DNA of 59,984 nucleotides from a virus. Shown in pieces: positions 9,452 to 47,266 of this stretch (positions are counted from its first letter, which is position 1; every line of letters starts with the position of its first letter). The stretch is taken from positions 1-59,984 of IMG/VR virus record IMGVR_UViG_3300022602_000102. One strand, 5' to 3'. The notes under the pieces were generated by a model, which did no database searches, had not been told where the DNA came from, and worked only from the letters and a program-made list of their open reading frames with translations. Both the position numbers and the translations under genes were made by a program.

Positions 9452-10129
9452 ATGAATGTCCGACTACTTAGCTACAGCCAGCCAACAGCAGAATTCTCCA
9501 ATATGGGAATCGCTGATGCCCAGGAACTTATTGCCTATTGCGCCAGAGTTTCAAACCCAAGTAATCAATTCAACACAGAAACTAGTGAGAAGCTTATCAA
9601 GTACCTCATTAAACATCAGCACTGGAGCCCTCTTGAAATGGTCTCAGCTTGCATTGAAATTACAACAACTCGAGACATTGCCCGTCAGATCCTTAGACAC
9701 AGAAGTTTTAGTTTCCAAGAGTTTAGCCAACGCTATGCTGACCCGACAAAGGATCTCAACTTTGTACTTAGAGATGCCAGAAAACAAGACCTCGAGAATA
9801 GACAAAATAGTGTAGAGTTAGATGTTCATAATAATGACGAAGATCGATTCCTTGCCTATCAATGGGAACGTATGCAAGAGCTAGTTATTAAACAAAGTCG
9901 TGAAGCATACGAATGGGCTATTCTAAAAGGTATCGCCAAAGAACAAGCCCGTGCTGTACTACCAGAAGGGTTGATTGAAAGTAGAATTTATATGAATGGT
10001 ACTCTACGCAGTTGGGTACATTTTATAGAACTACGTAGTGCCCACGGCACACAAAAAGAGCACCAACTAGTGGCGCTCGAATGTGCTCGTGTTATTAGCG
10101 AAATATTCCCAATGCTGGGTGATCTTTAA
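9452..10129 (+). CDS. thyX: Flavin-dependent thymidylate synthase ThyX
   Basis: ThyX makes dTMP from dUMP using FAD, NADPH and methylene-tetrahydrofolate, and so supplies thymidine for phage DNA synthesis. The signature RHRSFSFQEFS (82-92) fits RHRx7S, and QRY follows. ARVSNPSNQF (31-40) and HWSPLEM (57-63) are typical N-terminal ThyX blocks. Near the C-terminus NGTLRSWVHFIELRSAHGTQKEHQ carries the substrate-binding arginines. Its 225-residue length is normal for the family. The RBS is weak. Its stop codon interleaves with that of the convergent tail-fibre gene in TTAA. Confidence 0.95.
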   Translation: MNVRLLSYSQPTAEFSNMGIADAQELIAYCARVSNPSNQFNTETSEKLIKYLIKHQHWSPLEMVSACIEITTTRDIARQILRHRSFSFQEFSQRYADPTKDLNFVLRDARKQDLENRQNSVELDVHNNDEDRFLAYQWERMQELVIKQSREAYEWAILKGIAKEQARAVLPEGLIESRIYMNGTLRSWVHFIELRSAHGTQKEHQLVALECARVISEIFPMLGDL

Positions 10130-11289
10130 ACTACTACAGTCCAAGAACTATTTAAATAAATCATTAAATGCTGTTTGCCATCGCTAGCTGGATTCCATCC
10201 AGTGCCGTTGGCAACTGCCATTTGTCCGGCAATAGGGGTAGCAGGAGCTGTACCTAACGGTAACAATGTTGATGAAACACTATAGAAATTATTATAGTAA
10301 GCAGTACTTGTACCTAGTGTAGTTGTTCCGCTATTACCTGGATATATTGTATTACCTAATAATTGTAAAGTTGTAACCGCTGTTGACCCTGTCTTAGTTT
10401 GAAATACTAATGGAACTCCAGCAGTGGTACTAGATAGTACTGGAGTAGTTTGTTGCGATCCGCCATTGAAACTAAACTGAGTAGTTGCAACATTTAACTG
10501 ACTGCCTACAGTTAAGCCTGCTCCAACAAAATTCACAGCCGCTGTAAAACTAGCACTACCCGCTTGAATATAACTGTTTGCAGGTTGGCCACCTAGTGAG
10601 TCTGAATCGCTAGCAGTTCCCCAAAATTTATAATTAGTGCCTCTAGTAGAATAAACTGTAGTTCCGCTAACAGTAGTTTCAACTAACGAATTTAATGTAA
10701 TACCTTGGAATATACCATTTGTAGTAAATCCTGAAATATTACCACTACTAACACTAGTGTTTAATGCAAATGCAGTATTACTTACTGTGAATACTGTGTT
10801 GCTTCCATTTACAATAGCTTGAATAATTGGATAAGATCCGCTTGGACTTGCACTAGCTTGGTTAATTTGAAACTGTGTTGTACCGCTGTTTGTACTAGTA
10901 GTAAATGGGCCAATATGTACGTATGTTGAACCATTATACACATTCAATTGTTGGTTTGTGCTGTCCCACCAAAAGTCGCCAGTAGCTACATCACTAGGAG
11001 GTGCTGTACTTGCGGCTACTTCTGCGCTACCTGCTACTCTGAAACGTAGTCCGTCATAAAATCTTAATTTGTTTGAAGTAGTATCATACCAAATTTGACC
11101 AGCGATAGGTTGCGGAGGTTGTGTAGAGTTGGCAAAATTTTCCAACATATACACAAAATTCTCATTTTGACTTTGCCCATAGCCAGCATAATTTTTACCA
11201 ATTAGAGTAATATCTAAGGTATTATTAATTGTACCGTCTTGAACAGTGGCAATGCTGTTCCCGTTGTAATGATTGATTGTGTATGACAT
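10126..11289 (-). CDS. Tail fibre-like structural protein (paralogue 1)
   Basis: A 387-residue protein. Residues 1-60 (SYTINHYNGNSIATVQDGTINNTLDITLIGKNYAGYG) belong to an N-terminal module shared with the three fibre genes at 12981-19596, presumably the attachment part. Next comes a repeated WYD/WWDS ...VYNGSTYVHIGP element (about 65-130). The remainder is Ser/Thr/Gly-rich beta structure as in trimeric fibres. The C-terminus WTVVV is the last strand. It is the last gene of the minus-strand block and has a possible late promoter (CATAAATA) of its own. Confidence 0.75.
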   Translation of the reverse strand: MSYTINHYNGNSIATVQDGTINNTLDITLIGKNYAGYGQSQNENFVYMLENFANSTQPPQPIAGQIWYDTTSNKLRFYDGLRFRVAGSAEVAASTAPPSDVATGDFWWDSTNQQLNVYNGSTYVHIGPFTTSTNSGTTQFQINQASASPSGSYPIIQAIVNGSNTVFTVSNTAFALNTSVSSGNISGFTTNGIFQGITLNSLVETTVSGTTVYSTRGTNYKFWGTASDSDSLGGQPANSYIQAGSASFTAAVNFVGAGLTVGSQLNVATTQFSFNGGSQQTTPVLSSTTAGVPLVFQTKTGSTAVTTLQLLGNTIYPGNSGTTTLGTSTAYYNNFYSVSSTLLPLGTAPATPIAGQMAVANGTGWNPASDGKQHLMIYLNSSWTVVV

Positions 11290-11309: not shown

Positions 11310-11317
11310 TATTTATG
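11310..11317 (-). promoter_or_regulatory. Possible T4-type late promoter CATAAATA (minus strand)
   Basis: TATTTATG on the plus strand reads CATAAATA on the minus strand. The predicted start is near 11304, 15 bases before the start codon at 11289, with AAGGAA in the short leader. It overlaps the stop codon of the upstream gene. Confidence 0.45.
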
Positions 11318-12002
11318 CTGGATCTGTTGAGCCAGGTGCTGGCTGTGTAGCTGCCCAGGCATTCAATGCCGCTAATCCGTCAGAATTGTAAGCATATAAT
11401 TCTGGATAAACTGATAACCATGTTGTTGTAAGCTCAGGAACAAGCACTTTAAAACGTATAGTTACACGCCCTTGGTCTTGTAGAGTTAACGTTACCGGTT
11501 GGGTGTTTGTACATGTTCCTTTATAATCGCTTGTAGGTTGTCCAGCGATACTAACCGCAAATTCTGTTTTAGCCATATTTTTAATTTGCACAGTTGTGAC
11601 ATCATTCCATACAGCGCCATTTTGATCTACACACTGAGGAATTAATGTGATTGTGTTGTTTAACCCTACAATGCACTGTCTTTGACCATCTAAGTAAGTA
11701 TTAGGACCAAAATTAACAATAATTTTTCTAATTTTTAAAGTAGAATTAGCAGGATTCCAAAATGCTAAACTAATAGGATTGTAAATGCTGTTGGCAATAG
11801 CGTCGTACATATCTTGTGTAATTGCACCAAGATAATGATTATCTGTGTTTGCAGCAGTGTTTATAATATCGACAAATGGAGCTATAGCGCCGTATAAACC
11901 GACAATCAGCCCGCTGGACAGATCATATGTAATGCTGTATAAGTTAGTTTCAGACCAACCTGCTGCTAGTGTAGTTGGTGCTGCTGATACGGTTGTAGTC
12001 AT
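11313..12002 (-). CDS. Hypothetical protein of the tail-fibre cluster
   Basis: A 229-residue protein rich in Thr, Asn and beta-strand patterns. The central part (IVNFGPNTYLDGQRQCIVGLNNTITLIPQCVDQNGAVW, VTLTLQDQGRVTIRFKVLVPEL) looks like an immunoglobulin-like or jelly-roll beta domain. It may be an accessory fibre or fibre-tip protein; this is inferred from position only. It overlaps the upstream U32-like gene by 4 bases, so the two are probably translated together. Confidence 0.6.
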   Translation of the reverse strand: MTTTVSAAPTTLAAGWSETNLYSITYDLSSGLIVGLYGAIAPFVDIINTAANTDNHYLGAITQDMYDAIANSIYNPISLAFWNPANSTLKIRKIIVNFGPNTYLDGQRQCIVGLNNTITLIPQCVDQNGAVWNDVTTVQIKNMAKTEFAVSIAGQPTSDYKGTCTNTQPVTLTLQDQGRVTIRFKVLVPELTTTWLSVYPELYAYNSDGLAALNAWAATQPAPGSTDPA

Positions 12003-12997
12003 GCGTAATTCCTTGTTATTTGTTTATATACTTTATCACAGTGGTCGCATTCTATTCCGCACACTGTTTTACAATTTTTAGTTAATTCGTTAAATCCTAA
12101 ATCTGTAATTTGATTAACTGAAATAGTAGACAATTTTAAATCGCCTGTAGTACTTAATAATTCACCAAATCTTATATTTCCGCTACGTTTTTGATAAGCA
12201 TCGATTACACGAAACCATCTATCCAACGGAAATCCACGTCCGGCAATTTTTATTGTATTCACTAACCCGTCAAATTTATCTATATCATTAGGAAATGTAA
12301 AAGCTGTTTTTAGCCACTCAGCTGGATTATTTTTAAAATAACTTATACATCCAAGTTTACTATGAACATCGTCTGTTCTGGTTCTATCGTCTTGGAATTT
12401 AATTTGACTAATAATAATATCGTCCCATTGTTTCCATTTACAATCGACTATACATCCTTCATTGACTAACATAGTTATTTTAATATCATGCTGTTTAGCA
12501 TAATTACTCATTTTAGTTAGTGTATCTAAATCTCTATTTAAACTACGGTCAACTATGATGCTTTTCATGTGCAAAACTTCGTGCATAAACACAAAATCTT
12601 TTAATGTGCGAACTAAATTGTTTACACTATTTTTTAATTCTAAATCAGGATTTGCAACACGAAAATCATTTATAATATTTGCTCTTAACAAATAAGTGTT
12701 ATTAAGTGTAACAATATCTGCTTTGATATTTTTTACATGTTCGATTAATTCCGGAACTTGTCCATAAAAATCATTGTCATATACACTAGGATTTACCAAA
12801 TAGTGTACCTTTATTCCATATTTGTCTCTTATGGCATAAAGTTCGTCGAACATATCTTGTCCATTAAAAATACTTCTGGCACTACCAAATCTATTATCGC
12901 TAAAATATATATCCGTAATGGTGCTAGTATCCAAAGAGGCAAGTGGTTCTGACATACCTTGTGTATAAGGTATGCTAAACTTATGGGTTATAGACAT
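11999..12997 (-). CDS. Peptidase U32 / UbiU-UbiV / TrhP-like protein with Fe-S type cysteines
   Basis: A 332-residue protein that looks like a TIM-barrel member of the U32 family. Matching stretches are DIYFSDNRFGSAR (29-41), GIKVHYLVNP (61-70), PDLELKNSVNNLVRT (117-131), KSIIVDRSLNRDL (145-157), a cysteine pair in NEGCIVDC (C182, C186) and NTIKIAGRGFPLDRWFRVIDAYQK (247-270), which parallels the U32 KIEGR...YR block. Seven cysteines (C182, C186, C217, C309, C313, C317, C320) include a C-terminal CxxxCxxxCxxC. Related bacterial proteins bind 4Fe-4S and act in oxygen-independent hydroxylation of ubiquinone or tRNA. The gene overlaps fibre genes on both sides (17 and 4 bases), so it is co-expressed with tail fibres. 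Its substrate is unknown. Remote homology judged by eye. Confidence 0.55.
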   Translation of the reverse strand: MSITHKFSIPYTQGMSEPLASLDTSTITDIYFSDNRFGSARSIFNGQDMFDELYAIRDKYGIKVHYLVNPSVYDNDFYGQVPELIEHVKNIKADIVTLNNTYLLRANIINDFRVANPDLELKNSVNNLVRTLKDFVFMHEVLHMKSIIVDRSLNRDLDTLTKMSNYAKQHDIKITMLVNEGCIVDCKWKQWDDIIISQIKFQDDRTRTDDVHSKLGCISYFKNNPAEWLKTAFTFPNDIDKFDGLVNTIKIAGRGFPLDRWFRVIDAYQKRSGNIRFGELLSTTGDLKLSTISVNQITDLGFNELTKNCKTVCGIECDHCDKVYKQITRNYA

Positions 12998-15900
12998 TTG
13001 TTGTTCTCGATCCTATTCCAATCCACCCAGCTTGAACATTAGTTCCATGGTACCAGTGTCCGGCATCTAATACATTAACAGTTATTTGAAATTGTCCGTA
13101 AGAACCGCTAGTGTTACTTGTAGTTACAGGAGCGCAACTTACTGACCAATTACCCTCTCCCATACCATAGTATGCATTACGAAAATCTTGAACTCTAGTT
13201 AAACTAGGTGCAATATTAAATTGATAATTGCCTTTCCAATTTACAGCAGTACTATCACTACTTAACCCCATAAATGCCGCTAGATCCACAGTTAATGTAA
13301 TAGTTGGATTTCCGCTGTAACTTCCGCCAACCACTGTATGATTGCCAGAACCGTTCATATAGCTGTACCAACTACTTACTTCACCAGAAATTGAAGGAAC
13401 GCCTGAGACTGTGCCGCCGTTACTCTGTGGACTTAAATATAAATCAATAGTGCCAACTATACTTTGTACAATGGCTGCTAAATTTTGATTTAAACGAGTT
13501 ACGTTTACTGGGTCTGGAATGCTTGGCTGATTACTTAAATCAGTATAGCTACCTGTAGCAGCTACTCTGGCTAGTGTATTTCCAAAGTTTACATCAGTAA
13601 GAATTTTTGCCCATGGACTCCAAGTAGTGCCAACATCTCGACGACTACGTACAAAATTATCAGCGTGTGCGCCTGTTACGCCACTCCAGCCAATTAATAA
13701 TTCACCACCGCCTTCACCGCCCAACGATAATAAATTACCATACGTGTCTGGATATCCGTTAGCATAAACATCTCGTAAAGTTAATACATTTCTAGGTTCA
13801 TATGTATTATTATCTTCAATAGTTACACGGCCTTGGTTGTTAATAACAGTAGCAGAACTAGCATTACCATACAAACTACCAGTTACATTACCAGTTACAT
13901 TACCAGTTACATTACCAGTTACATTACCAGTTACATTACCGCTAAAGTTAGGAGCTGTTACAGTTCCTACCATTGTTAATGCGCCGCCTGGTCCAAATTG
14001 TCCAGAATATTGACCGTTATTGGTCATATTTGTATAACCGTCTCCGCCCCAATAAAATCCAGTATCTTGAGCGCCATCGCTGGACCATACAAGACTTGGA
14101 TTGGTTGCAGTGCCATCAGCTAAGAATATTCTACCAGCTTGTGCATATACGTTTCCAGTTACGTTTCCAGTTACGTTTCCAGTTACGTTTCCAGTTACGT
14201 TTCCAGTTACGTTTCCAGTTAAATTACCGCTAAAATTTGGAGCAGTAACAGTTCCAACCATATCTAAGTTTCCGCCTGGACGGAATCTACCCGAATACAC
14301 ACCGGCATTAGTCATTGCTATATAACCGTCAGTATTTCCATAAAATCCAGTTGCTTGGTTAGTACTGTTATACCATGCAATACTTGGTGCCGATGCTGAG
14401 CCGCCACCGATGAATATTCTTCCACCTTGTGCATATATCGAGCCAGTGACGGTGCCATTTAAAGGACCAGTAAAATTTCCAAGAACTTCTGCACCTAGAT
14501 AGCCAATTATTTTTCCAACAGCATCAATCATAAGTGTACTGTCTGTAGCGTATACTGATCCAGTTACGTTTCCAGTTACGTTTCCAGTTACGTTTCCAGT
14601 TACGTTTCCAGTTAAATTACCAACAACGTTTGCATTAGTATAACCTATTTGTCTTGTTGTAGAATTAACAATAACAGTTAAATTATCTGCGGCTAACAAA
14701 TTGCCAGTCACATTACCAGTTAAATTGCCAGTCACATTACCAGTTAAATTACCAACAACGTTTGCGTTGGTATATCCAAGTTGTTTAGTGCTAGAATTCC
14801 AAATACGTGTAGAATCAGCAGCTAATACATCACCAGTTAAATTACCTAATACATTACCAGTTACATTACCAGACAAAGGTCCGGTAAAGTTACCTATAAC
14901 ATTAGCATTTGTATACCCAAGTTGCTTTGTTATAGCATTCCAAACAGTCGTGCTATCATTTGCTTTTAGACTACCAGTTAAATCACCGATGATATTTGCA
15001 CTTGTATATCCAATTGTTTTGTTGTTAGATATAGTGTTAATCATTACAGTACCATCCGAAGATACTGTATTACCTGTAATATTAATATTGTATAAACCGT
15101 TGTCGTTATAAACAAAATCTAAAGGTTTGTCTGCAACATTTGTCCATTCTACTAAACTTGCTACCGCAGCTAATTGAGCTGTTCCAGCTGCATTTGAATA
15201 ATTTGCTGTATCTGCACTAGTAGCATGTCCGTAAAAATTAGCAGCTGTAACAGAAGTTGCTGTAATGCTTCCAGAACTGTTAATGTTTCCAGACGAAATT
15301 ACCGCTGTAGATAAATTGTTTACAGCCGTATTACCTAAACTATCACGTCCAACAACAGTATTTGGAGTATTAGTAGTTGTTGCGCTTACATAAGCACCGC
15401 CTAAATTTAATTTATCTGATTTTTGTGCTATAGAATATACATAGCCTGCATAGATATTTTGAAACTGTAGTGTACTACTACCGATGTTACTAGTTGCTGT
15501 TGTGCTTGGTAATATATCGCTTCCAGTAAGTGTTACAGTACCATTACTATTAGTTCCTAAAGTTAATACGTTGCCAACGGCTTGAATACTAGAATTGTTA
15601 ACAACTGCTCCGCCTGTAGTAAGTCCTGCTGAAAATGTTGTTAGTGTTGGAAATACTGTATTACGTAAAGGTGCATAATAACTTGCAGGTTCATTACCTA
15701 AATTATCTGCGTTAGTTGCAGTTCCATATACTTTAAAATTAGTGCTTAATGTTATACCTGGATAAATTATTGGAAAATTTGTTGCTATACCCGAGTCGGC
15801 TGGTGTAAATTCTGGATCTGCACTAACAATATATAATAACTGTCCATTGGCGTATGCTTGTTGAACAGCGTGTATCGCTGATGGAACTGCATTATCTGCT

Positions 15901-16331
15901 ATTCCTGCAGATACAGTTTGTGTTTGGCCGAACCCGGCAACACTTTGTGGTCCTACAAGAAGATAAGTTGTGCCATTCCACACATTTAATTGGTTATTTA
16001 CGCTGTCATACCATAAGTCGCCAACTGTGTGCGCTGTGGGAGCAGTAGCACTAATATTACTAACTGCTAGAGTTTTCCATGCTGCGCCATCATATACATT
16101 GATTTTTAAATTAGCAGTAGTGTTGTCAAACCATAACTCACCTGCAATTGGTTTTTTAGGAGGTTGATTACCGGCAAAATTTTCTAATAGCCAAACAAAA
16201 TTGTCATTTAAACTTTGACCGTAGCCGGCATAATTTTTTCCAATTAATGTAAGATCCAGTATTGTACTAATTGTTCCATCGACAACAGTAGCTACCGGTG
16301 TTCCATTATAATTGTTTATTGAGTATGCCAT
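12981..16331 (-). CDS. Large tail fibre protein with GNVT repeats (paralogue 2)
   Basis: An 1116-residue fibre. Residues 1-60 are the shared N-terminal module (YSINNYNGTPVATVVDGTI...LIGKNYAGYG). Repeated WYDS/VWNGTTYLLVGP elements follow, and residues 450-830 hold tandem GNVTGNVT stretches interleaved with longer repeats (two copies of RIF..G..A..PS..W...TGFY...GY..MTN.G.YSG.F.PGG...MVGTVTAPNFSG). A segment near residue 880 (LLIGWSGVTGAHADNFVRSRRDVGTTWSPWAKI) resembles pyocin-knob type fibre domains. The last 180 residues are probably the receptor-binding tip (GAGHWYH-like DAGHWYHGTNVQAGWIGIG). The protein is probably trimeric. Its end overlaps the U32-like gene by 17 bases. Confidence 0.8.
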   Translation of the reverse strand: MAYSINNYNGTPVATVVDGTISTILDLTLIGKNYAGYGQSLNDNFVWLLENFAGNQPPKKPIAGELWFDNTTANLKINVYDGAAWKTLAVSNISATAPTAHTVGDLWYDSVNNQLNVWNGTTYLLVGPQSVAGFGQTQTVSAGIADNAVPSAIHAVQQAYANGQLLYIVSADPEFTPADSGIATNFPIIYPGITLSTNFKVYGTATNADNLGNEPASYYAPLRNTVFPTLTTFSAGLTTGGAVVNNSSIQAVGNVLTLGTNSNGTVTLTGSDILPSTTATSNIGSSTLQFQNIYAGYVYSIAQKSDKLNLGGAYVSATTTNTPNTVVGRDSLGNTAVNNLSTAVISSGNINSSGSITATSVTAANFYGHATSADTANYSNAAGTAQLAAVASLVEWTNVADKPLDFVYNDNGLYNINITGNTVSSDGTVMINTISNNKTIGYTSANIIGDLTGSLKANDSTTVWNAITKQLGYTNANVIGNFTGPLSGNVTGNVLGNLTGDVLAADSTRIWNSSTKQLGYTNANVVGNLTGNVTGNLTGNVTGNLLAADNLTVIVNSTTRQIGYTNANVVGNLTGNVTGNVTGNVTGNVTGSVYATDSTLMIDAVGKIIGYLGAEVLGNFTGPLNGTVTGSIYAQGGRIFIGGGSASAPSIAWYNSTNQATGFYGNTDGYIAMTNAGVYSGRFRPGGNLDMVGTVTAPNFSGNLTGNVTGNVTGNVTGNVTGNVTGNVYAQAGRIFLADGTATNPSLVWSSDGAQDTGFYWGGDGYTNMTNNGQYSGQFGPGGALTMVGTVTAPNFSGNVTGNVTGNVTGNVTGNVTGSLYGNASSATVINNQGRVTIEDNNTYEPRNVLTLRDVYANGYPDTYGNLLSLGGEGGGELLIGWSGVTGAHADNFVRSRRDVGTTWSPWAKILTDVNFGNTLARVAATGSYTDLSNQPSIPDPVNVTRLNQNLAAIVQSIVGTIDLYLSPQSNGGTVSGVPSISGEVSSWYSYMNGSGNHTVVGGSYSGNPTITLTVDLAAFMGLSSDSTAVNWKGNYQFNIAPSLTRVQDFRNAYYGMGEGNWSVSCAPVTTSNTSGSYGQFQITVNVLDAGHWYHGTNVQAGWIGIGSRTTNVYNP
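13879..13938 (-). repeat. Tandem 12-base repeat, array A (five units, GNVT coding)
   Basis: Five exact copies of CCAGTTACATTA (plus strand), read on the minus strand as AAT GTA ACT GGT = N-V-T-G. Part of the tail-fibre gene. Confidence 0.9.
14155..14226 (-). repeat. Tandem 12-base repeat, array B (five units plus a variant, GNVT coding)
   Basis: Five exact copies of CCAGTTACGTTT followed by the variant CCAGTTAAATTA. The minus strand reads AAC GTA ACT GGA = N-V-T-G: the same peptide as array A, with different Asn and Gly codons in every unit. Confidence 0.9.
14560..14619 (-). repeat. Tandem 12-base repeat, array C (four units plus a variant, GNVT coding)
   Basis: Four copies of CCAGTTACGTTT and then CCAGTTAAATTA, the same unit type as array B. 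A further mixed array near 14703-14754 alternates CCAGTCACATTA and CCAGTTAAATTG-like units (GNVT/GNLT). Confidence 0.85.
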
Positions 16332-16348: not shown

Positions 16349-17455
16349 TTACCAAGTTGTTAATGCTGATCTTTTCCATGTGTTTGTCGATGTACACACA
16401 TAAACGTAATTTTCGTCCCATGCAATTTGGCCTGCTACGCCTGCTGAACTACTTGTAGCAGGAGCTTTGCCAGATGCAATTCTAAATGTTCCGCCTACAT
16501 CAAGAGTTGCTTGTGGGTTATTATTGTAGAATCCAGCGTATTCTAATTGTGCGTTAATAAAAAATGCACTTGTAGAACCGTTAGATGAATTATTTAAATT
16601 AATATCAAAATTTTGGTTAGCTGTATTTGATTTAATTTGGAATGCTTGAGCTAGTGTGTATTCAGGTTGAACACTAATTTCAATGTCGTTTCCTGGGCCT
16701 AAAATTAATTGTATCGCAGAAGTAATTGATAATGCACCAAGACCAGTTGTATCTGGAGCGATAATAGAAGATCCTGTTGTTTTTACCAATGCACTTGGAG
16801 GATACAGAGTATTGCCATCGTATAATGCACTAGCTTGGCTTGACAATACATTGAATTGTAACCCAGTTAGTGTACTAGCATTAAACCCAACAACTACATC
16901 GCCTGTAAATCCAGCTATAGGAGACTGAGGAGTAAACGCATCTTTACTAAAAAATCCAATTAATGCGCCTGCTACATATACATTAGCGATAGTATGGCTA
17001 ATGTTATATACATCTAAAATATCTTCCGGAACTTCAAATCCGCAAACACCTTGACTTTGTGAATAAACTGGACCTGCTAATATATCCCCGGTACCTGCAT
17101 TAAAATGCAGTTGTCCATTGACACTATCGATCCACAAATCGCCTGCTGAATAAGAACTAGGTGGTGTAGATGAAACAGTTGTTCCTCCTACTGGAGAAAA
17201 TGTATTGTTGTTATAGACTTTTAAAACAGCATTTTGTGTGTCATACCATAACTGACCTTGAATAGGATTCGAAGGTTGGTTAGTGTTGGCAAAATTTTCT
17301 AACAAATGAACAAAATTATCATTTATAAAAAGTCCGTATCCTGTGGCATTTTGGCCGATTAAGGTTAAATCGGTTGCAGTTTGATTTACTTGTCCGTCAA
17401 TTAACCCACCTTGTATTAACTGGTCGCCGTTAGTTTTAAGTATTTGGTAAGCCAT
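16349..17455 (-). CDS. Tail fibre-like structural protein (paralogue 3)
   Basis: A 368-residue protein. Its N-terminal 55 residues (YQILKTNGDQLIQGGLIDGQVNQTATDLTLIGQNATGYGLFINDNFVHLLENFAN) are a diverged copy of the module in the other fibre genes. WYDTQNAVLKVYNNNTFSPVGG and WIDSVNGQLHFNAGTGDILAGP follow, the double tryptophan repeat also seen in the paralogues. The rest is low-complexity beta structure. The C-terminus (AGVAGQIAWDENYVYVCTSTNTWKRSALTTW) is a typical short fibre end. The start codon overlaps the stop of the upstream fibre gene (TAATG). Confidence 0.75.
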   Translation of the reverse strand: MAYQILKTNGDQLIQGGLIDGQVNQTATDLTLIGQNATGYGLFINDNFVHLLENFANTNQPSNPIQGQLWYDTQNAVLKVYNNNTFSPVGGTTVSSTPPSSYSAGDLWIDSVNGQLHFNAGTGDILAGPVYSQSQGVCGFEVPEDILDVYNISHTIANVYVAGALIGFFSKDAFTPQSPIAGFTGDVVVGFNASTLTGLQFNVLSSQASALYDGNTLYPPSALVKTTGSSIIAPDTTGLGALSITSAIQLILGPGNDIEISVQPEYTLAQAFQIKSNTANQNFDINLNNSSNGSTSAFFINAQLEYAGFYNNNPQATLDVGGTFRIASGKAPATSSSAGVAGQIAWDENYVYVCTSTNTWKRSALTTW

Positions 17456-19596
17456 TAGATTCCAACTCCAGTGTAAATGATATAATTTATAGTTAAGTAC
17501 GGATTCATAATGTTGATTGCTTGTCCAGTCAATGTAGAACCACTTGACTGATTCAATACAGGACCAGCATCTGCTAATCCTCGATTAGTTCCACTTGGAG
17601 TAATACCGTATCCTGCTCTTGTTGCAGCATCTGAATCTGAAATACTTGAAGTATCGCCAACTGCATAGTATTGCGTGTTTCCATTGCTTTTTAAACTATG
17701 TGTATGCTGTGGTATTTGACTTGTTGTCAATGTTAATGTGCTTGCTCCTGGTCCAGATAAAGCATCTGAACCGGCTCCAATATTATCTGCTGTAGTATCT
17801 GTCACACGGTTAGCCGCTGATCCAACTGTACTAATCAAATTATTAGCATTACCACTGCTAGGTACTTGAATATTATTGTTCATATTATCAGCACCTAATG
17901 GGAAACGGCCTCTTAAGTCTGGTAATTTAAATGTTGCAGCACCTTTTAAATCGTTTGATGTTCCGTTACTATATGTGTATCCAATTAATTTAAAAAGTAC
18001 AGGGTATGTTTGTTGTAAAACTTCGCTACCGTCACATAGTAAATATCCAGCAGGTACATTAGCTGCCGGGCCTGCAAAAGGAAATATACAACCAACAGGA
18101 ACTAACGGTACATGATTAAAGAATGTAGTCTTACTCATCTGTACCAACGACTGTGTGCCTTGTTGATAAACTACTAATTTGTCTGGAAATACAGAATTTA
18201 ATGATGACGAATCTGTTGCAACTATTGATTGCCCTGTAACAAACGATGAAGTTAATTTAGTATTAAATGTAGCTGTACCGTTAACTGTTGCTCCATTAAA
18301 ATTAATAGAATTACTTGTTACATCGCCTTGTAAACTAAAAATTGTAGGATTAGCCAATTGTGTAGCTGCACCATCAACTGATCCTGAAAAATATCCAGAA
18401 AAAGTTCCGCTAAAATCTCCTACAAAGTTTTGTGCATATATGTTTCTAAATTGTGCAGTCGGTGTTCCGATATCGTATTGAGATGAAGCACTTGGCTGAA
18501 TTGCAACACCACTTGAATTGCCAACTATTAATTCGCCCGATGTAGTAATATTTCCGCCAACTGTTGCATTTCCGGTAATTGTTGCATTTCCAGTTGCGGC
18601 AATATTACCACTAGTTGTAATCCCAACGCTTGAATTAATAGATCCGACTACATCTAATGCTACAATCGGACTAGGGTTGTTTATACCTACATTGCCATTT
18701 GCGCTGATTTGAATTGCATTGCTAGTAGTGCCTACTGAAAACGCCACGCTATTGTTTGGATTAATAGAATTAAAAATTGTACCGGTACCAGTAGTTTTTA
18801 TTTGAAAACTTAAATCGCTACCAATAACTAGACCATCATTATTTCTAACATTCAACACAGAATTAGTAGTATTAGTTCCACCAACATACGTTGTTAAAAA
18901 ATTTGTTGACGCTACAACTTGATTATTAACTAATAATCCGTTAGCTGAACTAGCAGTTCCCCACACTCCAGCAGAATTTCCATTACTAGGATTGAGACTG
19001 TTTGGAGATGTGTAAAGATTAAGACCTTTATTAATAGATGTAAAACCCACTAGTGTTTGTTTAGGAGTAAAACTATCTTGACTTACTATTGCAACTCTGT
19101 TATTATTTGAATATAAACTAATAACATAGTGTGTAGTATTTGTAGTATCAACTATTTCTTCTGCTTGAGGGCCTGTATTAGAACTTGAACTAAATTGAGG
19201 GCCAACTAAGACCCAGCTAGATCCTGACCACACGTATAGTTGACTTGTATCAGTACTAACCCAAACATCGCCTGTATTAGCAGTTGAAGGAGGATTGTTA
19301 CTTAAAGATTTTTTAATTGCGCCTGCTGGATTCCATGTTCCGGCGCCATCATAAACTTTAAGTAAATTGTTAACATTATCATACCATAACTGCCCTTGAA
19401 CAGGAGTAGTAGGTGCTGTAGGATTTGCAAAGTTTTCTAATAAATGCAAAAAATCTGTTGCAAACACAGGAGCGTAACCACTGTAACCCTGGCCAACAAA
19501 AGTCATGCTAGTGGTAGTATCTAAACTTTGATCCTGTACTGTAATAGGAGGCTTGTTTGGATTATTAGTTTCTGTATAGGTAATGGTATACGGCAT
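17455..19596 (-). CDS. Tail fibre protein with tail-collar domain (paralogue 4)
   Basis: A 713-residue protein. The shared N-terminal module (residues 1-60) and two tryptophan repeats (WYDNVNNLLKVYDGAGTW, VWVSTDTSQLYVWSGSSWVLVGP) are followed by a beta-helical or repeat region (TGNATITGNATVGGNITTSG). At about residues 495-570 there is a clear phage tail-collar domain (VGCIFPFAGPAANVPAGYLLCDG...KLPDLRGRFPLGAD). The C-terminal part (SQIPQHTHSLKSNG...NIMNPYLTINYII) completes the collar family pattern found at the ends of short and long tail fibres. Likely role: receptor-binding fibre. The start is 4 bases from the upstream gene's end. Confidence 0.85.
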   Translation of the reverse strand: MPYTITYTETNNPNKPPITVQDQSLDTTTSMTFVGQGYSGYAPVFATDFLHLLENFANPTAPTTPVQGQLWYDNVNNLLKVYDGAGTWNPAGAIKKSLSNNPPSTANTGDVWVSTDTSQLYVWSGSSWVLVGPQFSSSSNTGPQAEEIVDTTNTTHYVISLYSNNNRVAIVSQDSFTPKQTLVGFTSINKGLNLYTSPNSLNPSNGNSAGVWGTASSANGLLVNNQVVASTNFLTTYVGGTNTTNSVLNVRNNDGLVIGSDLSFQIKTTGTGTIFNSINPNNSVAFSVGTTSNAIQISANGNVGINNPSPIVALDVVGSINSSVGITTSGNIAATGNATITGNATVGGNITTSGELIVGNSSGVAIQPSASSQYDIGTPTAQFRNIYAQNFVGDFSGTFSGYFSGSVDGAATQLANPTIFSLQGDVTSNSINFNGATVNGTATFNTKLTSSFVTGQSIVATDSSSLNSVFPDKLVVYQQGTQSLVQMSKTTFFNHVPLVPVGCIFPFAGPAANVPAGYLLCDGSEVLQQTYPVLFKLIGYTYSNGTSNDLKGAATFKLPDLRGRFPLGADNMNNNIQVPSSGNANNLISTVGSAANRVTDTTADNIGAGSDALSGPGASTLTLTTSQIPQHTHSLKSNGNTQYYAVGDTSSISDSDAATRAGYGITPSGTNRGLADAGPVLNQSSGSTLTGQAINIMNPYLTINYIIYTGVGI

Positions 19597-20256: not shown

Positions 20257-23200
20257 TTAATCCTTAAATCCTGTGTACCAAACACCCGGTTCTGCTTTGA
20301 TAAAATCAGGTATTGTACCAGAATCATTGAGGATATTTACTGGATTATTCTTATTTCCGTCCCATGCTACACCGGTAGTTTGAACTACTGAAACCTGAGT
20401 ACCTTGTGTCATTGGGTTAGTCAATGTTAATTCAGCTGTAGTCGAAGAAACGTTGGAAATAGTGAAATCAGCTGGGTATGTAACATCCCCGGCAGGGCTA
20501 TATGGTGCTTGATTTATGTCAAATATCTTATAAGATGATTTTTTCAAACGAACCATGTCACTAGTTCCACCGACAAATACCTCGTATAAAGATCCGTAGT
20601 TAGTAAACTTAGATCCAACAACTGCAACGTTGGTTAATGTAAGTGTATTTGTAACACCGTCTGCTATGAAATTCTGTACAGAAACTGTATCAGTATATGG
20701 AACTGTTGAACTAGACCCAATATCTTGTACATAAACTCCTGCTCTGTATAAATTACGCATGCCAGTACCCAACGTTCCGCGTCTTAATTTACTTAATGTA
20801 TTACCATTAATTGCAAAGAACTCTATACGTTCGCCCTGTATCTCAATAATACCTGGTCTGTTTGTCGAAACATTAGGAATATCAAAAATAGAACCATTAT
20901 CGACAACGATTTCTGTGTCATTCCAATTTAAATCTTGAGCTAACTTAGTTTGCTTGTTAAGACTTAGACGTTTATAACTTACTCTATTAAGCATATCTTT
21001 AAATTGCATGTAAGAAACATTACCTACTACAGAACTGACCCCGTACGTCATTAAGGAATATGTGTCACTGCTAATCGGAGTAACATTTAGTCTTACTGAC
21101 TGTCTATCATCTTGTACAATATAATCAACTCCTGGAATTAATAATGTCTTATTTTTACTCAACCATACGTATTGATCATCGAATACTGGTCTATCTAATG
21201 GAATTACTCCACTAGCTAGTTGTTGATAATAAGAATACTGTACTGTGCCTGGTGTTAATGTTGAAGTAGTTGAAATAGTCACAGCGGTTCTTTCAATATC
21301 AATGATTGAATTATTATAAGAACTGAATACTTGTATCTTTTTCGTAGGATCTGGTGCTTGTGCAAGATTTAAATTTGCAGAGCCTGTTTTGGTATTTGTA
21401 ATATTAACAGTATAATCAGCGTTAGTGTTTATAGTAACAATTAACTGATTTCCGATATTAGCATTATATATTTTATTCAATAATGTAACAGTAATTGTTG
21501 TTAAATCAATAGTGTAATCTTTTGTCAACGATAGTTTAGTTCCATTAATGTAAACTCCAACATCGGTAAACTTTGTTGTATTATCTGGAACATATTTTTT
21601 AGTATCGAATATATATGTTTTTACACCTTTTTCAATTGTAAAATAATCTGCTACTGGAGGTGTTAACACGGTATTACCTAACATAACAACCATACCTAAT
21701 TCAACTGGTAATCCAATTCCCTGAGGAGTTGATATCGGATATGTTGTTACACCCGACTGAACAATAATATCACTAGTTGTAGTAACTGCAAAGTTTTGTT
21801 GCAACCCTTCTGTAATAATATAAGTTATAGTCGAATTTAATGAAGGTGCTACTGCAAATCTAAAACCAATTAACCCACTCACTGTGTATGTGGAATCTGT
21901 TTTAAATAACAATGGTGTAACAACATTACCGTTTAAGTAGATTAAAGATGTAATGTTAGTTAACCAAGGAGCTTTGGTTACAAATTCTGTAGTAACCCCA
22001 TCGCAAATAAAATAATCACCATCCAAAGTATTTTTACTATTATGTCCTAAACTAAAAATACTTACAAGTTGTCCAGCTGTTAACCCTGTAACAAAAACGA
22101 TTGTATTATTAGAAGTATTAACGTTATAATCTGTTGCAGAAACTGCAATTTCATTATCTACTTTAACAATAACACCTGTTGAGCTTGTAGGAGATTGTGT
22201 TATATTAAAAACTGATTGGCCGGCAGATGCAACATACGTATCAGTTTTAACTGACGCATAAACATCGTATGGCTGGTCAAATACTTTAATAGCTAAAGTG
22301 TCTACTACTTGGCCCGGAACTACTTCTTCAGGTGCTGGGCTTGAAGTCGGTGTTACTAAACCGTCACCATCTATCACTATATCATCTGCTAGTAACCCTG
22401 TAGCAGTTGAATAAGCTAGATCGCCGCCCGATATAGCGGTATCGTAATCTTGCACTGGCGGAGCGATTGAACCATCACTAGTACTCTTACGCAATATAAA
22501 TTCATCACCATCGTTAACTGTATAAGATTGAGGAATACTTATAATAGTTTCTGGTAAGCCGCTATTGAATTGCTGAATTGTTGCAGTTGCAGTAGCGGTT
22601 TGAATTCCAGAACTAATAGTAACTGTTGGATTGTTTAAGTAGCCACCACCTGGATTAGTAATAGTTATTGAACTCAAACCATATACTATCGATATAGTAG
22701 CATACTGGCCTGTGCCGCCAGTTAAAGTTAAATGTGATTCATCTAACGATCCAGTAAATGTAGTTGATGACACAATAGACATTGTGTCAATTGGGCCTAC
22801 TGGAACTACTTGGTTGCTAGCTACTCTAGTAACTTCAAATATAACCGCACCGCTACCAGTAATCGTAGTAGAAGAATGTCCGCTTAATAATGCTGTAGTT
22901 TGTTTAAGGTTAACGGTCCAAGTACTACCAGCACCTGTACCACTTATATTTCCAGTAATATAGGTAATAGCATTACTTGTTATAATACCTGCGGTAATTT
23001 GAGTTGCTACACTAGACATGTAAATAGTACCGTTGATAGAAAGTGGTGTATTAATAGTGTAAACTCCCACTCCTCCTGCGGTTCCAGATACTTGACTTGT
23101 AATTGATACAGTATTTGAAGGTATATTACTACCTGAAATCACTTGTCCAACTGCTATTGTACCGCTTGATACACTGGTTACAAATAAGTATTCACCAGTT

Positions 23201-26200
23201 CCAGAACCACTAGATGAACTAATTGTACCTGCAAAGTTAGATAAAGTAACAACTTTAGAATAAGAAACAGTAGTATCTGTTGCAGCTATTACTGTAAAGG
23301 TACCGTTATATGCAACTGGTGCTATACCCGATACTGTAATTAGTTGTCCTATTGCAAAAGGCACATAGCCTGCGCTTAATGCTGTAAATGTTAATGTAAC
23401 AGTACCAGTTGTTGTATCACAACTTGCGCCAGTTGTTGTAATTCCACTATGACTCTGTGCAATACCCGAACCAGTAAGTATCATACCAACTTGTACAGTG
23501 CCGGATGCAACAGTGCCTACTGTTAATATTGTGTTAGAAATTACAGAATTATTCAATACCGCAGGAACAACACCGTCAGCTGGTTGGGCAACTAGTATAT
23601 CACCTACGTTATAACCAACTCCGTTGTTACTTCCATCATAATTAACGCCAATAGCAGTCATGACTGCTGCACCAGTTGCAGTATATAAAGGAGCATTTAA
23701 ATCACTAGGACTAAATGTTACCGTTGGAATTGTAACATACTGTCCTGCATTAGTAACAGTTGTAGATAATACAGGGAAAGGCGTTTGCATTATAGCATTA
23801 CCGTTGGTCTGATTAGATGTTCCAAATTTAGAATCGTCTAATCTAATTGGATTTATGTTGCCAGTAATAACTAAATTGGATCCTATTGTCAAAGGTTTAA
23901 GTAACTGTATTGTTCCATCACTAAACACATCAACATCGATAGTTTCTTCCAATACTCTAGTAAATGATATAGTCGAACCATCTGGGATATCTTGATAAAC
24001 AATGGTATCAATAACTTTAGTAATGCTACCATACCCTGTAACGCTAGCAGTTAGTGTACTTGCAAAAGTTACACTGTTGGTGGTGTAATTTGTTACTACA
24101 AATAATCCATTGTATTTGTCTGGAGTGAATCCAGTAACGCTAATTAAATCTCCAGTAATATAAGGAGCTGTAGATTTAGTTGCAAAAGTCATTGTAACTG
24201 TAGTACCGTTACTTGTTACTGTTAATATATTCAAACTTGTGGTTATATCCAACACACCAAGTTTGACAGTATTTTCAGAACTGTTAACTGTTTGAACTAC
24301 TGTGTTATAAGAAATTGCTGGGATTGTTCGACCATTAACTGTTTGGTTAATAGTAGAAGTTATTACATCGTTAATAGCTATATCAGTCGTGCTGGTCAAA
24401 CTCAACAAGTTACTTCCTGGATAATTAAATCTGAAATTTAAAGGTATTGCTGGAGGAGAAGTAAACACTGTTCTAACAGAGGTTATTGCTCCTGTAGATG
24501 ACACACCTGTAATTACAACCAACACATCGTTACCTGGTGTAACACCGTCGACGAAAGATGTTCCTAGAATCTTAATACTATTAGTAGTAGCTTGATTTAT
24601 ATTTGCAACATAATTTGATCCGCCGTTAACAATTACAGCAGTATAGCCGGTGTCAGTTGCTACTATGTTAAACACGGCACCTGAACCTGGAATGCTTCCA
24701 ACTTTTGTACCAGTTAAATTTAAATACTCTCTACTTGCCGGATTGCTATCAGGAGCAGCACTAATTTTTAAAGTATGACTGTCAATTACAGAAACAACTG
24801 TTTGATTGGATGCAAATCCGTTACCGATAATAGTCATTCCTAAATTACCGTCAACACTTCCGATAATCCCAGTAGTACTTGAAACTTTCAATGTTGTATA
24901 GTAACTACCAGTTGCAATATAGTTTGTCGATGTGCTGGTTGTTTCGACGGTAATTACATTTGTCACCACTGGAGCAGATGCATTGATATTGTAATCATAT
25001 TTTAATTCTGATACATCGGTTATAGTATGAGTATCAACGCTAGTAGATTTTTTGTAAATGTTAATTTCTGTTCCAAGAGCTGCTGAATTAGGCAAAATAA
25101 TTGAATGAGTGTTAGAAGCTACAGTTACAAAATAATTGTTATCTGTAAATGAAGTATCAAAATTGTCCCATTTATCTGTATAGTATGGAGTAGTTCCCCA
25201 TCCGCCACTAACATTAAATCCTAATCCTGTAACTTGAACGCCACCGTAGTCAACTCCTGTCATTAATTGCGACAACTCTTTTCCTAGTTGTCCAGTAGTT
25301 GGATTATAATAATATTGAATACGATCCGTTGCAGATAACACAGATTGATCGATAGTATAGTTAACTACGATTGTACTTCCAGATGCTGGCGCATTAGTAA
25401 ATGTAATAGTGCCTGAATATTGAGTGTAACCGTTACTAGTTGATGTAACTATTGCAAAAGAATACAATTCACGGAGGACTGGCACACCATTAATTGTTAC
25501 CGATGAAGTTCCAACGGTAGAATCTGGGGCCCATGTTAATGCAAATTGTATTTTAGATCCTGTACCTGTAAATGTCTGAGACTGAGTAAGATTAGTAATA
25601 ACATAATTACCACTAGTTCTATCAAACTTTATACCAATTAATGAAGATCTGACAACACTGTCTCCGATAATAGCTGTTGCAGTTGCAGGAGTTCCTCCAA
25701 TGCCAACACCGCCAGATATAGTAATTGTTGGAGCTGATAAGTATCCACTACCTCCAGATATTAATACAATTCTGTTAACAACACCGTTAGCGATAAATGC
25801 GGTAGCTGAGGCGCCGGATCCACTAGAACCTGTAAACACAACCTCTGGAGGTGTAACATACCCAGATCCACCATTAACTAAAACAATTTCGGTTATACTA
25901 AATCCAACATTATCCAACCAAAACTTCCAAGGATATGTCTGTATAGCAGTATTATCCGCATCGATTAAACCGTTAGCGACTACTGTATTAATCGGAACTA
26001 CCCTATTTGTATAAATTGGTTGCAAATCAAAGTCGGAAATTGCAGTAGATCCTAAATCTAAATTAGTATAGTTACTGATATACTCGCGCAGTTTTGTTCT
26101 GTAAGGTTTTACTTCACTTACATAATCTTCAAAATTGGCAATATTATCTACAGGATAGTTCACTGGTTGATCTAGATTGCCAACATTGTGTGTAGCACGT

Positions 26201-29200
26201 ACAAAACTAGTTTTGAACGCCCAGTCAATAAACACTTGCTCGCTATGTGCATATTTTATTGCGGCAATAAACAAATCTAGATAGTTTTGTTTTAAATCAC
26301 CGATGAAAATATCTTGTTTAATAGCATTTAAAATAATACGTAATTCTGTAGAAGCTACAACGTCGAACCCGTTATCGTAAATATCAGAATCATATCCAAT
26401 ATTAGTAGTTTCAAAGTTGTATAATTTAGTGCTTAGTTGAATTGTTCCGTTTTGTATACCAACTACATTGTAACTTTGTGTCCAGTCAACGCTAGTACTG
26501 TTAGCATATTTTTCTAACAATAACCAGCCGCCGGAGTTTACAGTAGAAACTTTTACAAGCTCTCCAATTTTAGGCTGAATTGAATTTAATTCAACTAAAG
26601 TAGAAATTAAATAATCAGCAGATGTATACTGACTATATCCAGTTGCATACCAATCTGCATAATTCCAATAATTTCTAACATCATACGCTTGTGTTAGAAT
26701 TCTTGACCATGTGCCGGCGCCTGTGCTAGTTGAACTAGGTGTCCAGGAATAGATACTCCAGTTACCATTAGCCTGACTATCGCTAGATACTAACACACAA
26801 TAACTTCTTACAACAAGTGTAGTATTATCAGGATCATATCCTGCGCCGCCGTTATATACTGAAACTCCTGTTATTTTACCATTAGTAATAGTTGTAGTAA
26901 TCTTGGCGTTTTTACCAGATCCTACAATTTCAACACTTGGGCCAATACCGGTATTGTCATCAGTACCATTACCATAACCGCTACCTGCAAATGTTATAGT
27001 AACGTTTGTAATCGTTCCATTTACAATTACTGGTGTTAATTGCGCTTGTCTAAACGAATTAATGTTAACGTATGCTAAATCTGCATCTGTATTTTGTGTT
27101 TGGTCGTATAAACCTGTAACAGTAGTAGGAGTTGTGTCATAACTTTCTAACTGAGTAAGATTATAATTTTCACTTATTTGATTTAGTAGTAGTGTAACGT
27201 TAACACGTTCAACAAATTCTTTCAATGCCTCAATGCGATTTACAAACATGCTTTGACGAGGTCTATTTAAAATACCGTAACGTAGTTTAACAGGTTGTTT
27301 AGGATCCGGTACAGGGCGGCCTGCGCTGTCAACACCGCATAAACTATCAAACCATTTTTGTTCAATCGTTGCTGGCAAGTCAACATTTGTATCATCGCTG
27401 ATTAAACTCCACTGACTATGTACATTTTGATCTGTCTTATCTGTTAACCAATATTCTACAGCTAGGACTACATCTTTTGATTTCAAATATGAACGAGCAT
27501 TTACTAAACTAAAGCTATCAGCACCTAGTAGTGCAAGATATGTATATGCTTGACCTCGAGGATTTGATATTAATAAAGACACATCCAGAGCAGACATGTT
27601 TCTGCCTGGGGCTGCTGGTGTAACGTTTTTATTTTTTACCCAGAAATAGTAAGTATTTGTAAATTTCTTAGTAATGTTATTATATTTTTGTGTAGTACAA
27701 TAAGCATTATTTCCGTACAAACTTGTTCCACTAATACCCTGTGCTAAACCAGCAGGAGTGTCTGCTTGAGCATCCCATGCTTCTGGTAACAATTTTGTGC
27801 TTACCCATTCGTAAATATCTACACTTGCGCCAACAGCCAATGTATTCCAAGAATTGTTTCTGTAACTTACATCATCTAGATAAGCGTTAACAAACTTAGC
27901 TGTTGATAGATTCCACCATAGTTGACCAACTTGCGCTGGGCCCCAGAATGATTTAGTATCTGTATTCACAGGTGCATTATTAGCTGAGTAAGAGTATGTA
28001 GAAGGATCATAGAATGATTTATATTTTATTTCTTCATCAGCTGGGCCTGGTATTTTTCCCTGATTTGGATCAATAACATCTAGATAAGTCGACAATGTGC
28101 CAAGTGCTTTATTGTATAAGAACGCTTTTTTAATTTTCTTAACATTGGCTATTGATACACCTGTTCGACCTACAGTCCAAGAAAGAGCACTCTGAGGTTT
28201 ACTATAAGCATATATTAAACCAGAATGTGTGTATGTTCTATCAGTTGCATACGGTGCGCTGACTATAATTTGATTATTACAAACTGCAAATCCAATACCG
28301 TATCCATCAGTTGAACTATTAGTTGTTGATAAACTTTCACTGAATACCCAAGTGTTTGCATACATGTCATATATGTCTACTCGTCCACTGCCTGGATGCT
28401 GTGTTACGAAATCAGTACTTGATTTATCAAAGGTTGTTGTATTCTTATCTAATGTAGTTGTAATACTTGTATTGCCATGCTCGCTATAGACTATCAGTGT
28501 TTGATAGTCGTTCATGAAGGCAATCTTACTACCAAAATTACTGTATGGTTGCGGATATTGATTAGTTATAGTAAACACAGGATTTTGATTATAACTACCA
28601 TTTACACGTTGATACACATATACAGCGCCTACTGTATAATCCGATACGGCAATATATGTTCCGTTGTTAGAAACTGCAACAGATTGTCCGTATGAACTGC
28701 TATATCGAATAGTCTCTGTAGAGCTTAATTGCTCCGAAGTATTAGAATTAAGGTTGTATATAAATGCGTTGTAAGGAGGAGCTCCTGCCGATGTTGTAAC
28801 TACAAGTGTTGAATTATCAGCACTTACTGTTAAATTATTACCAAAACCGGTATTAGTAATCGATGGCGTTGGATCAAATGTATTGCCAAAACTCCAACTT
28901 TCTTCAACAAATTTTAATGCTCCAGTAGGTGTTGAGTCTGGAGCAGCATTTAATGTAACTGTGTTAACGCTAGTTATAGCAGTAACATACTGTCCCGAAG
29001 TAAATCCAGTACCTTGAACGTACATTCCAACTGAAATTCCATACACAGGAACAGCGACATTGCTTGACAACACTAGTTGATAAGGGTCTGCTGTTGTAAA
29101 ACTTCCAACAGGATTATAATTTGCTGGTACATAGTTTGTTATTCCGTAATTTAATGAATACACTCTACCTGTACTGCTATTATAACCTTCTGCCGATATG

Positions 29201-46435: not shown

Positions 46436-47266
46436 ATGACACCAACGAAAGTAAATTACCTAAACAACAAGGATATGTTGTTAGAAATACATAGAAGTAA
46501 AAGCTCATATTGTAGCTTTACACAACCAGAATATCACCAATACGACATAATTGTTCCAAGTTTGGATAAAATTAACATCCGAACGATTGCAGAGGCCAAA
46601 CGCAATAGAGCAAAACGAATCGGTGATTTAGATTATCAAACACGTAAAAAGGCTGGAGAAAAAGTTAAACAAGCTGACTGCGAAATTGACTATAAAAAGA
46701 TTCTTAAAACAGATGTAGTTTTTAGAGTCATGACGTTTGATCATATTCCGCTTAATAACACCCGTAAAAAGAATCCAAAGAGTCTAGCCGACCATAGAGA
46801 TAAAGTTAATTTTCCTCCGTTCCAACACTGGAAATTTGATGAAGAAGATAATCTTATTTGCGTGGGCAAAAGCCATTGGAAGGGAGATTTGGTTAAAGGA
46901 CACTTTGATAAAGATGCCGGCCAAATAACTAACACCTTAGCTAGGATGATGTTAAAATTGTGTGAACGTTATGCCACACGTGGCAACGTGCGTGGCTACA
47001 CATATAACGACGAAATGAAAGGACAAGCCATTTTGCAGTTAACACAAATTGGATTACAGTTTGATGAAAGTAAATCGGATAACCCATTTGCATATTTTAC
47101 TGCGGCTGTTACTAATAGTTTCGTTCGTATTATTAATATTGAAAAACGTAACCAAAATATCCGTGATGACATTTTAGAAATCAACGGTATGAACCCAAGT
47201 TATAGTAGAACTGGTGCAGGCGAACATGCGGCCGCACTAAAACGAAACGAGGAAGCTAGTGAGTAA
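46436..47266 (+). CDS. 55: Late transcription sigma factor gp55
   Basis: A 276-residue protein (T4 gp55 is 185). The C-terminal part ITNTLARMMLKLCERYATRGNVRGYTYNDEMKGQAILQLTQIGLQFDESKSDNPFAYFTAAVTNSFVRIINIEKRNQNIRDD (about 161-245) has the gp55 region-2-like core that binds the polymerase coiled coil and the TATAAATA-type -10 element. The N-terminal 140 residues are an extension (IRTIAEAKRNRAKRIGDLDYQTRKKAGEKV). With the sliding clamp and gp33, gp55 directs late transcription; those partners are not in this window. The many GATAAATA sites here are its expected targets. It has its own sigma70-type promoter. Confidence 0.92.
   Translation: MTPTKVNYLNNKDMLLEIHRSKSSYCSFTQPEYHQYDIIVPSLDKINIRTIAEAKRNRAKRIGDLDYQTRKKAGEKVKQADCEIDYKKILKTDVVFRVMTFDHIPLNNTRKKNPKSLADHRDKVNFPPFQHWKFDEEDNLICVGKSHWKGDLVKGHFDKDAGQITNTLARMMLKLCERYATRGNVRGYTYNDEMKGQAILQLTQIGLQFDESKSDNPFAYFTAAVTNSFVRIINIEKRNQNIRDDILEINGMNPSYSRTGAGEHAAALKRNEEASE

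Follow-up and report, generated by a model that had tools for sequence, protein, structure and literature searches.

The locus studied here raises the question of why a gene for a U32-like, cysteine-rich protein lies next to a tail-fibre gene in a phage genome, and what its product might do there. The initial annotation of the window, i.e. the whole stretch of 59,984 bases from a virus record that was analysed, described seven cysteines, a C-terminal CxxxCxxxCxxC and a KIAGR block in this protein. All of these features are present in the reading frame listed in Table 1, with the cysteines at C182, C186, C217, C309, C313, C317 and C320. The same annotation placed fibre genes in overlap with both ends of the gene. 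This was correct for the upstream side, where the start of the U32-like gene overlaps by 17 nt a gene matching tail-fibre PHROGs; on the downstream side, the overlap is 4 nt (ATGA), but the gene concerned encodes no recognisable fibre protein, since its product has no match in PHROG or Pfam and an Ig-like domain in its model.

Homologues with 72-87% identity were detected on 24 uncultured IMG/VR contigs (full-length; one partial), and a second, more distant set with 47-49% identity on six further IMG/VR contigs. Many of these contigs are near-identical and, with identical proteins counted once, they provide about 21 distinct full-length sequences. Among the pairs that allowed an estimate of dS, dN/dS for the U32-like gene was about 0.02-0.15; saturation affected many pairs. 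We conclude that the U32-like gene is real and under strong purifying selection.

Table 1. Coordinates of the U32-like gene, its motifs, its neighbours and the related loci in cultured phages
Feature	Coordinates	Strand	Basis or remark
U32-like seven-cysteine protein, 332 aa	11999..12997	-	ORF, ATG start; PHROG 5757; fold; TrhP/RlhA/UbiU profile match; 30 relatives
Barrel-mouth loop T175-MLVNEGCIVDC186	12440..12475	-	C182, C186 and E180 invariant; T175 at the TrhP E162 position
Third invariant cysteine, C217	12347..12349	-	Invariant among compared homologues
KIAGR, residues 250-254, counterpart of U32 KIEGR	12236..12250	-	Alignment
C-terminal CxxxCxxxCxxC (C309, C313, C317, C320), possible Fe-S ligands	12038..12073	-	Invariant; model confidence low at 310-316
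Tail-fibre protein, 1116 aa	12981..16331	-	PHROG tail-fibre matches
Fibre C-terminal tip domain, 104 aa core, candidate substrate	12984..13295	-	Conserved in every cassette
Cassette partner, 229 aa, predicted Ig-like C-terminal domain	11313..12002	-	ORF; model; overlaps U32-like gene by 4 nt
U32 and TS-family loci of cultured phages	RB69 L026:5911-8075; Thanatos-2 L028:3758-7071; also L027, L029, L030, L031, L032, L033

The protein has a predicted U32-like fold but no Pfam or NCBIfam match

Pfam and NCBIfam searches with the U32-like protein gave no match, PF01136 included, and the homologue on contig L037 (49% identity) scored 17.1 bits against PF01136, below the gathering score of 22.4 bits. 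Moreover, PDB and family sequence searches with the single protein or a profile returned nothing useful, and the lead came from PHROG 5757, which matches the protein weakly (2.8e-7). The four RB69-type homologues tested from cultured phages reached 42-44 bits against PF01136, and PF01136-positive phage proteins are homologous across 92% of the window protein. In profile-profile comparisons using hhalign, the whole group aligned with E. coli TrhP, RlhA and UbiU with 97.3% probability (E 1.6e-11), with KIAGR on KIEGR, and the fibre-linked branch alone with 86% (E 5e-6); by contrast, the control, a luciferase-like barrel encoded at the same E. coli locus, gave 0.15%. MAFFT misregistered the cysteine blocks when the group was aligned with the E. 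coli U32 proteins, and the hhalign register was used instead.

The AlphaFold2 model, based on 32 sequences, is a beta/alpha barrel (pLDDT 83, pTM 0.85). Its best match in the PDB was the U32 protein Mk0906 (5d88; Foldseek E 4.5e-7; Z 17.1, rmsd 3.2, 225 residues aligned), followed by generic barrels at Z 14.3, and the top viral-model match was a phage 'Peptidase' (E 8.6e-12). As 'peptidase' is an inherited U32 label and there is no evidence for proteolysis here, we rejected a peptidase function. A match to TelK_muzzle (E 0.19) was likewise set aside as chance. Model confidence is lowest in two loops that contain cysteines, at residues 182-186 and 310-316, as might be expected if these loops fold around a metal that is absent from the model.

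The structure prediction suggested in the initial annotation thus supports a U32-like barrel, and the proposed resemblance to U32, UbiU-UbiV and TrhP enzymes holds for fold and homology; the implied closeness to UbiU, UbiV and TrhP does not, given the missing Pfam and NCBIfam matches, the cysteine spacing and a Thr in place of a Glu (see below). Because PF01136 is not matched directly, we refer to the protein as U32-like, or as a U32 relative, rather than as a recognised member of the superfamily.

Relatives in cultured phages and bacteria

Using tblastn, we detected a homologue with 22-25% identity over 92% coverage in 218 cultured phage records, nearly all from T4-like phages of enterobacteria. 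Proteins of this type, such as RB69 ORF050c (PHROG 5757, 'peptidase'), have all seven cysteines, the NE-x-C motif and the barrel fold in common with the window protein. They differ in having Glu at the TrhP E162 position and in location: the RB69 gene lies between the genes for DNA polymerase and uvsX in a DNA-modification cluster, and a tip domain or Ig-like partner was found beside the homologue in none of 11 RB69-type loci. Against the NCBIfam UbiU model, the RB69 homologue scored 18 bits (cut-off 440).

In all eight cultured phages inspected, the arabinosyl/pentosyl-5-hydroxycytosine cluster includes a gene for a TS-family 5-hydroxy-dCMP synthase, and the U32 homologue, labelled 'peptidase', lies within a few genes of it; the synthase gene is annotated as such in seven of them, while the syntenic gene of X20 is called 'hypothetical'. 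Synthesis of 5-hydroxy-dCMP has been assigned to the thymidylate-synthase-family enzyme in a study of this cluster (PMC13390438); the word U32 is absent from this study and from the other papers searched. Formation of 5-hydroxycytidine in rRNA requires RlhA, itself a U32 protein; the RB69-type U32 gene may therefore represent a step that has been overlooked, and its position beside the synthase gene is relevant to the origin of 5-hydroxycytosine in arabinosylated phage DNA. The genes of the arabinosyl-5-hydroxycytosine cluster are not adjacent to the U32-like gene of the window. Moreover, neither a TS-family synthase scoring above the cut-off nor an NTP-transferase of the RB69/Thanatos type was detected in the window or in 16 related records, all of which are fragments (the largest of 98 kb). 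A PF00303 match in G010 lies within a frame of 603 codons and, at 12.7 bits, falls below the cut-off; it was rejected as a TS-family gene and attributed to chance.

A profile scan of genome contigs using the fibre-linked branch alone gave no relatives, and the scan with RB69-type sequences added recovered bacterial ones. Proteins from metagenome-assembled genomes of Desulfuromonadaceae and other deltaproteobacteria (L080, L081, L082) are 30-31% identical to the window protein and have NEGC-x3-C, the third cysteine and the C-terminal cluster of four cysteines as in the window; unlike the window gene, their genes are chromosomal, and that on L080 has no fibre genes nearby. They are part of a bacterial U32-like subfamily that has NEGC-x3-C and a four-cysteine C terminus but no Pfam or NCBIfam name (L080:5635-6759, L081:54-1139, L082 from about 5900, L132-L137). 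In one genome, the homologue adjoins a radical-SAM gene (L082:5016-5798) that by eye resembles RlmN, an rRNA modification enzyme.

Cysteines and active-site residues

From the window through the RB69-type phages to the deltaproteobacterial proteins, all seven cysteines as well as E180, K250 and G253 are invariant, and the cysteines named in the initial annotation are therefore conserved across three divergent groups. Most U32 subfamilies have the four-cysteine motif CX6CX15CX3/4C, from which UbiV and two others deviate (PMC6747719). The window protein does not have this spacing and instead contains C182-x3-C186-x30-C217 together with the C-terminal CxxxCxxxCxxC.

A Glu is essential in TrhP (E162) and RlhA (E161) (PMC6599085). 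In the hhalign register, T175 aligns with TrhP E162; the residue is Thr in every fibre-linked member, Glu in the RB69-type proteins and most bacterial relatives, and Lys in two bacterial ones. Of the KIEGR motif, K, G and R are retained and Glu is replaced by Ala or Ser. With T175 in place of an essential Glu, activity may be changed or lost; however, the two bacterial members also lack this Glu, and its absence need not mean an inactive protein. The conserved residues are concentrated on the catalytic face of the barrel.

TrhP (YegQ) and RlhA (YdcP) generate 5-hydroxyuridine in tRNA and 5-hydroxycytidine in rRNA, respectively, by prephenate-dependent hydroxylation at C5 (PMC6599085). They have profile-profile homology, a KIEGR-like motif and a cysteine after strand 7 in common with the window protein, which lacks their cysteine spacing, the essential Glu, the E. 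coli-type C-terminal region and an NCBIfam match. UbiU and UbiV, which function in O2-independent ubiquinone hydroxylation with [4Fe-4S] (PMC6747719), are related through the U32 superfamily and, by analogy, cluster-binding cysteines would be expected in the window protein; by contrast with UbiU and UbiV, it has no partner of the same fold encoded next door, a different cysteine pattern and no family match. As both the usual cysteine spacing and the Glu essential in TrhP and RlhA are lost, we conclude that the window protein is a distant U32 relative in a divergent branch without a family name, and is neither TrhP, RlhA nor UbiU/V.

A three-gene cassette is kept in two phage lineages

HMM scans identified the order tip domain, U32-like gene and Ig-like partner of about 220 residues in 29 of 29 IMG/VR loci with both flanks as well as in the window, counts that are partly circular, some of the tested loci having been used to build the HMMs; two further loci are interrupted by contig ends and are not included. 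In separate collection scans, all matches to the partner and the tip domain were on contigs with the U32-like gene, except for three that run off a contig edge. The genes outside the cassette differ between the two phage lineages while the cassette itself is kept, and the fibres of the two lineages are alike only towards the C terminus, where about 130-230 residues align with 27% identity. The 17-nt overlap of the fibre gene and the U32-like gene is present in 11 of 11 close relatives examined, and the distant lineage has a gap of 16-17 nt. A search for the same gene next to fibre genes elsewhere, as the initial annotation had called for, was thus successful for all related uncultured contigs with flanks, and the link to fibres is stronger than that reading could see. 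In total, we conclude that the U32-like gene is part of a fixed three-gene cassette in two phage lineages, which is the main new result of this analysis.

The model of the Ig-like partner (pLDDT 86) has a C-terminal Ig-like domain with generic matches only (Z 9 or less). Ig-like domains are common in virion and surface proteins. Tyr22, Trp195 and Trp216 are invariant in the partner, and the tip domain contains invariant Trp, His and Asn residues and a near-invariant Tyr. Because the first tip-domain scan was dominated by a common fibre linker motif, the query was trimmed; L102 was dropped as a carrier of the domain, as it matches only the linker. The trimmed scan missed the more distant lineage and is, therefore, not exhaustive. 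In tblastn searches of cultured phages, neither the Ig-like partner nor the tip domain was found. In L037 and L038 from the distant lineage, there are three tip-domain HMM matches upstream of 8001, suggesting that more than one fibre carries the domain there.

Proposed function and alternatives

We tentatively propose that the protein is a U32-like, probably Fe-S-binding barrel enzyme that serves the fibre tip or the Ig-like partner. A [4Fe-4S] cluster would be held near the barrel mouth by C182, C186 and C217, alone or together with one C-terminal cysteine, and the remaining cysteines of CxxxCxxxCxxC may form a second site. TrhP, RlhA and UbiU/V act in O2-independent pathways and add hydroxyl groups to ring carbons; by analogy, the enzyme would introduce a hydroxyl group or another modification into a residue of the tip domain or the partner before assembly. 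As the known roles of U32 proteins are in ring hydroxylation (pyrimidine C5, quinone precursors), an aromatic side chain in either the tip domain or the partner is a natural guess; a narrower version, in which an O2-independent Fe-S enzyme modifies a residue, perhaps the ring of a Trp or Tyr, of the phage's own fibre tip or accessory Ig-like tip protein, is possible if somewhat doubtful. We infer modification of fibre proteins from gene linkage, which by itself does not identify the substrate; nevertheless, strict linkage across rearranged fibre regions fits better with a protein dedicated to its neighbours than with a metabolic passenger. In the literature searched, we found no precedent for U32-mediated hydroxylation of phage fibres, nor any paper describing hydroxylated tail fibres or a U32 protein in phage tails. 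A comparable concept, in which a virus encodes a hydroxylase that acts on virion or fibre proteins, is the viral prolyl 4-hydroxylase of a Chlorella virus, also proposed for phage fibres, but this enzyme belongs to a class that depends on 2-oxoglutarate and O2 and acts on a different residue (PMC9301287). If our proposal is true, virion proteins would be added as substrates to a family known for hydroxylation of RNA and quinones, and phages would enzymatically finish their own receptor-binding tips.

The main rival, and a serious one even if we hold it to be unlikely, is hydroxylation of a nucleic-acid base, either cytosine in phage DNA or a base in host tRNA or rRNA, with the fibre region merely a convenient location. 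It gains weight because the nearest cultured homologues lie in a DNA-base-modification cluster, close to the 5-hydroxy-dCMP synthase gene in each of the eight phages inspected among the 218 with a homologue (PMC13390438), and the products of RlhA and TrhP are themselves 5-hydroxylated bases in RNA. However, base modification leaves the strict linkage with the tip domain and the Ig-like protein unexplained, there are no tRNA genes in the window, and the missing TS-family and NTP-transferase matches also argue against it, albeit weakly because the records are fragments. The loss in all fibre-linked members of the Glu essential in TrhP and RlhA keeps a structural or assembly role in play, in which a catalytically altered U32 barrel would assist assembly or form a metal-bearing component of the virion tip rather than act as an enzyme. 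Close coupling to the fibre and Ig-like genes is typical of fibre chaperones, and lambda gpL is a precedent for an Fe-S cluster in a tail tip. We nevertheless regard this role as rather unlikely: the concentration of conserved residues on the catalytic face and the presence of the same cysteines in bacterial proteins without fibres nearby suggest retained chemistry, and the two bacterial members without the Glu caution against equating its loss with inactivity.

Finally, added genes often land in fibre regions, and the chemistry of UbiU/UbiV would suit an auxiliary metabolic gene for host quinone or surface metabolism that is found here by chance; this is very improbable, as both lineages retain the cassette despite changing surroundings and the protein matches neither UbiU nor another NCBIfam model. 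Altogether, modification of a virion protein is the best, though unproven, explanation; Fe-S binding, enzymatic activity, substrate and timing are inferred, in contrast to the gene, its conservation, its U32-like fold and homology, the invariant cysteines and the three-gene linkage, which the data show.

Genomic context of the window

The window encodes a gp55-like late sigma factor (46436-47266), a T4-type baseplate hub protein and SbcCD-like gp46/47; the closest relatives of its gp46 (50%) are found in jumbo phages, for example PA5oct. The window therefore probably represents part of a larger, T4-like genome. Late co-expression of the U32-like gene with the fibres, as assumed in the initial annotation, was not borne out by the promoter sequence TATAAATA, which is present at two sites compared to about 10 expected by chance, neither of which precedes the fibre operon. 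Because this sequence is rare despite the presence of a gp55-like gene, late promoters may have another consensus.

Further modification-type enzymes encoded in the window are a QueE-like radical SAM protein (181-1038) and a 2OG-Fe(II) oxygenase (1619-2320). A gene for a ThyX-like thymidylate synthase (9452-10129; PHROG 85) is convergent with the fibre operon, and the tail region contains one ORF of 5,658 aa (20257-37233). Four fibre-like proteins (10126-11289, 12981-16331, 16349-17455 and 17455-19596) start with similar segments (such as DLTLIGKNYAGYGQ), which suggests that several fibres use one attachment module.
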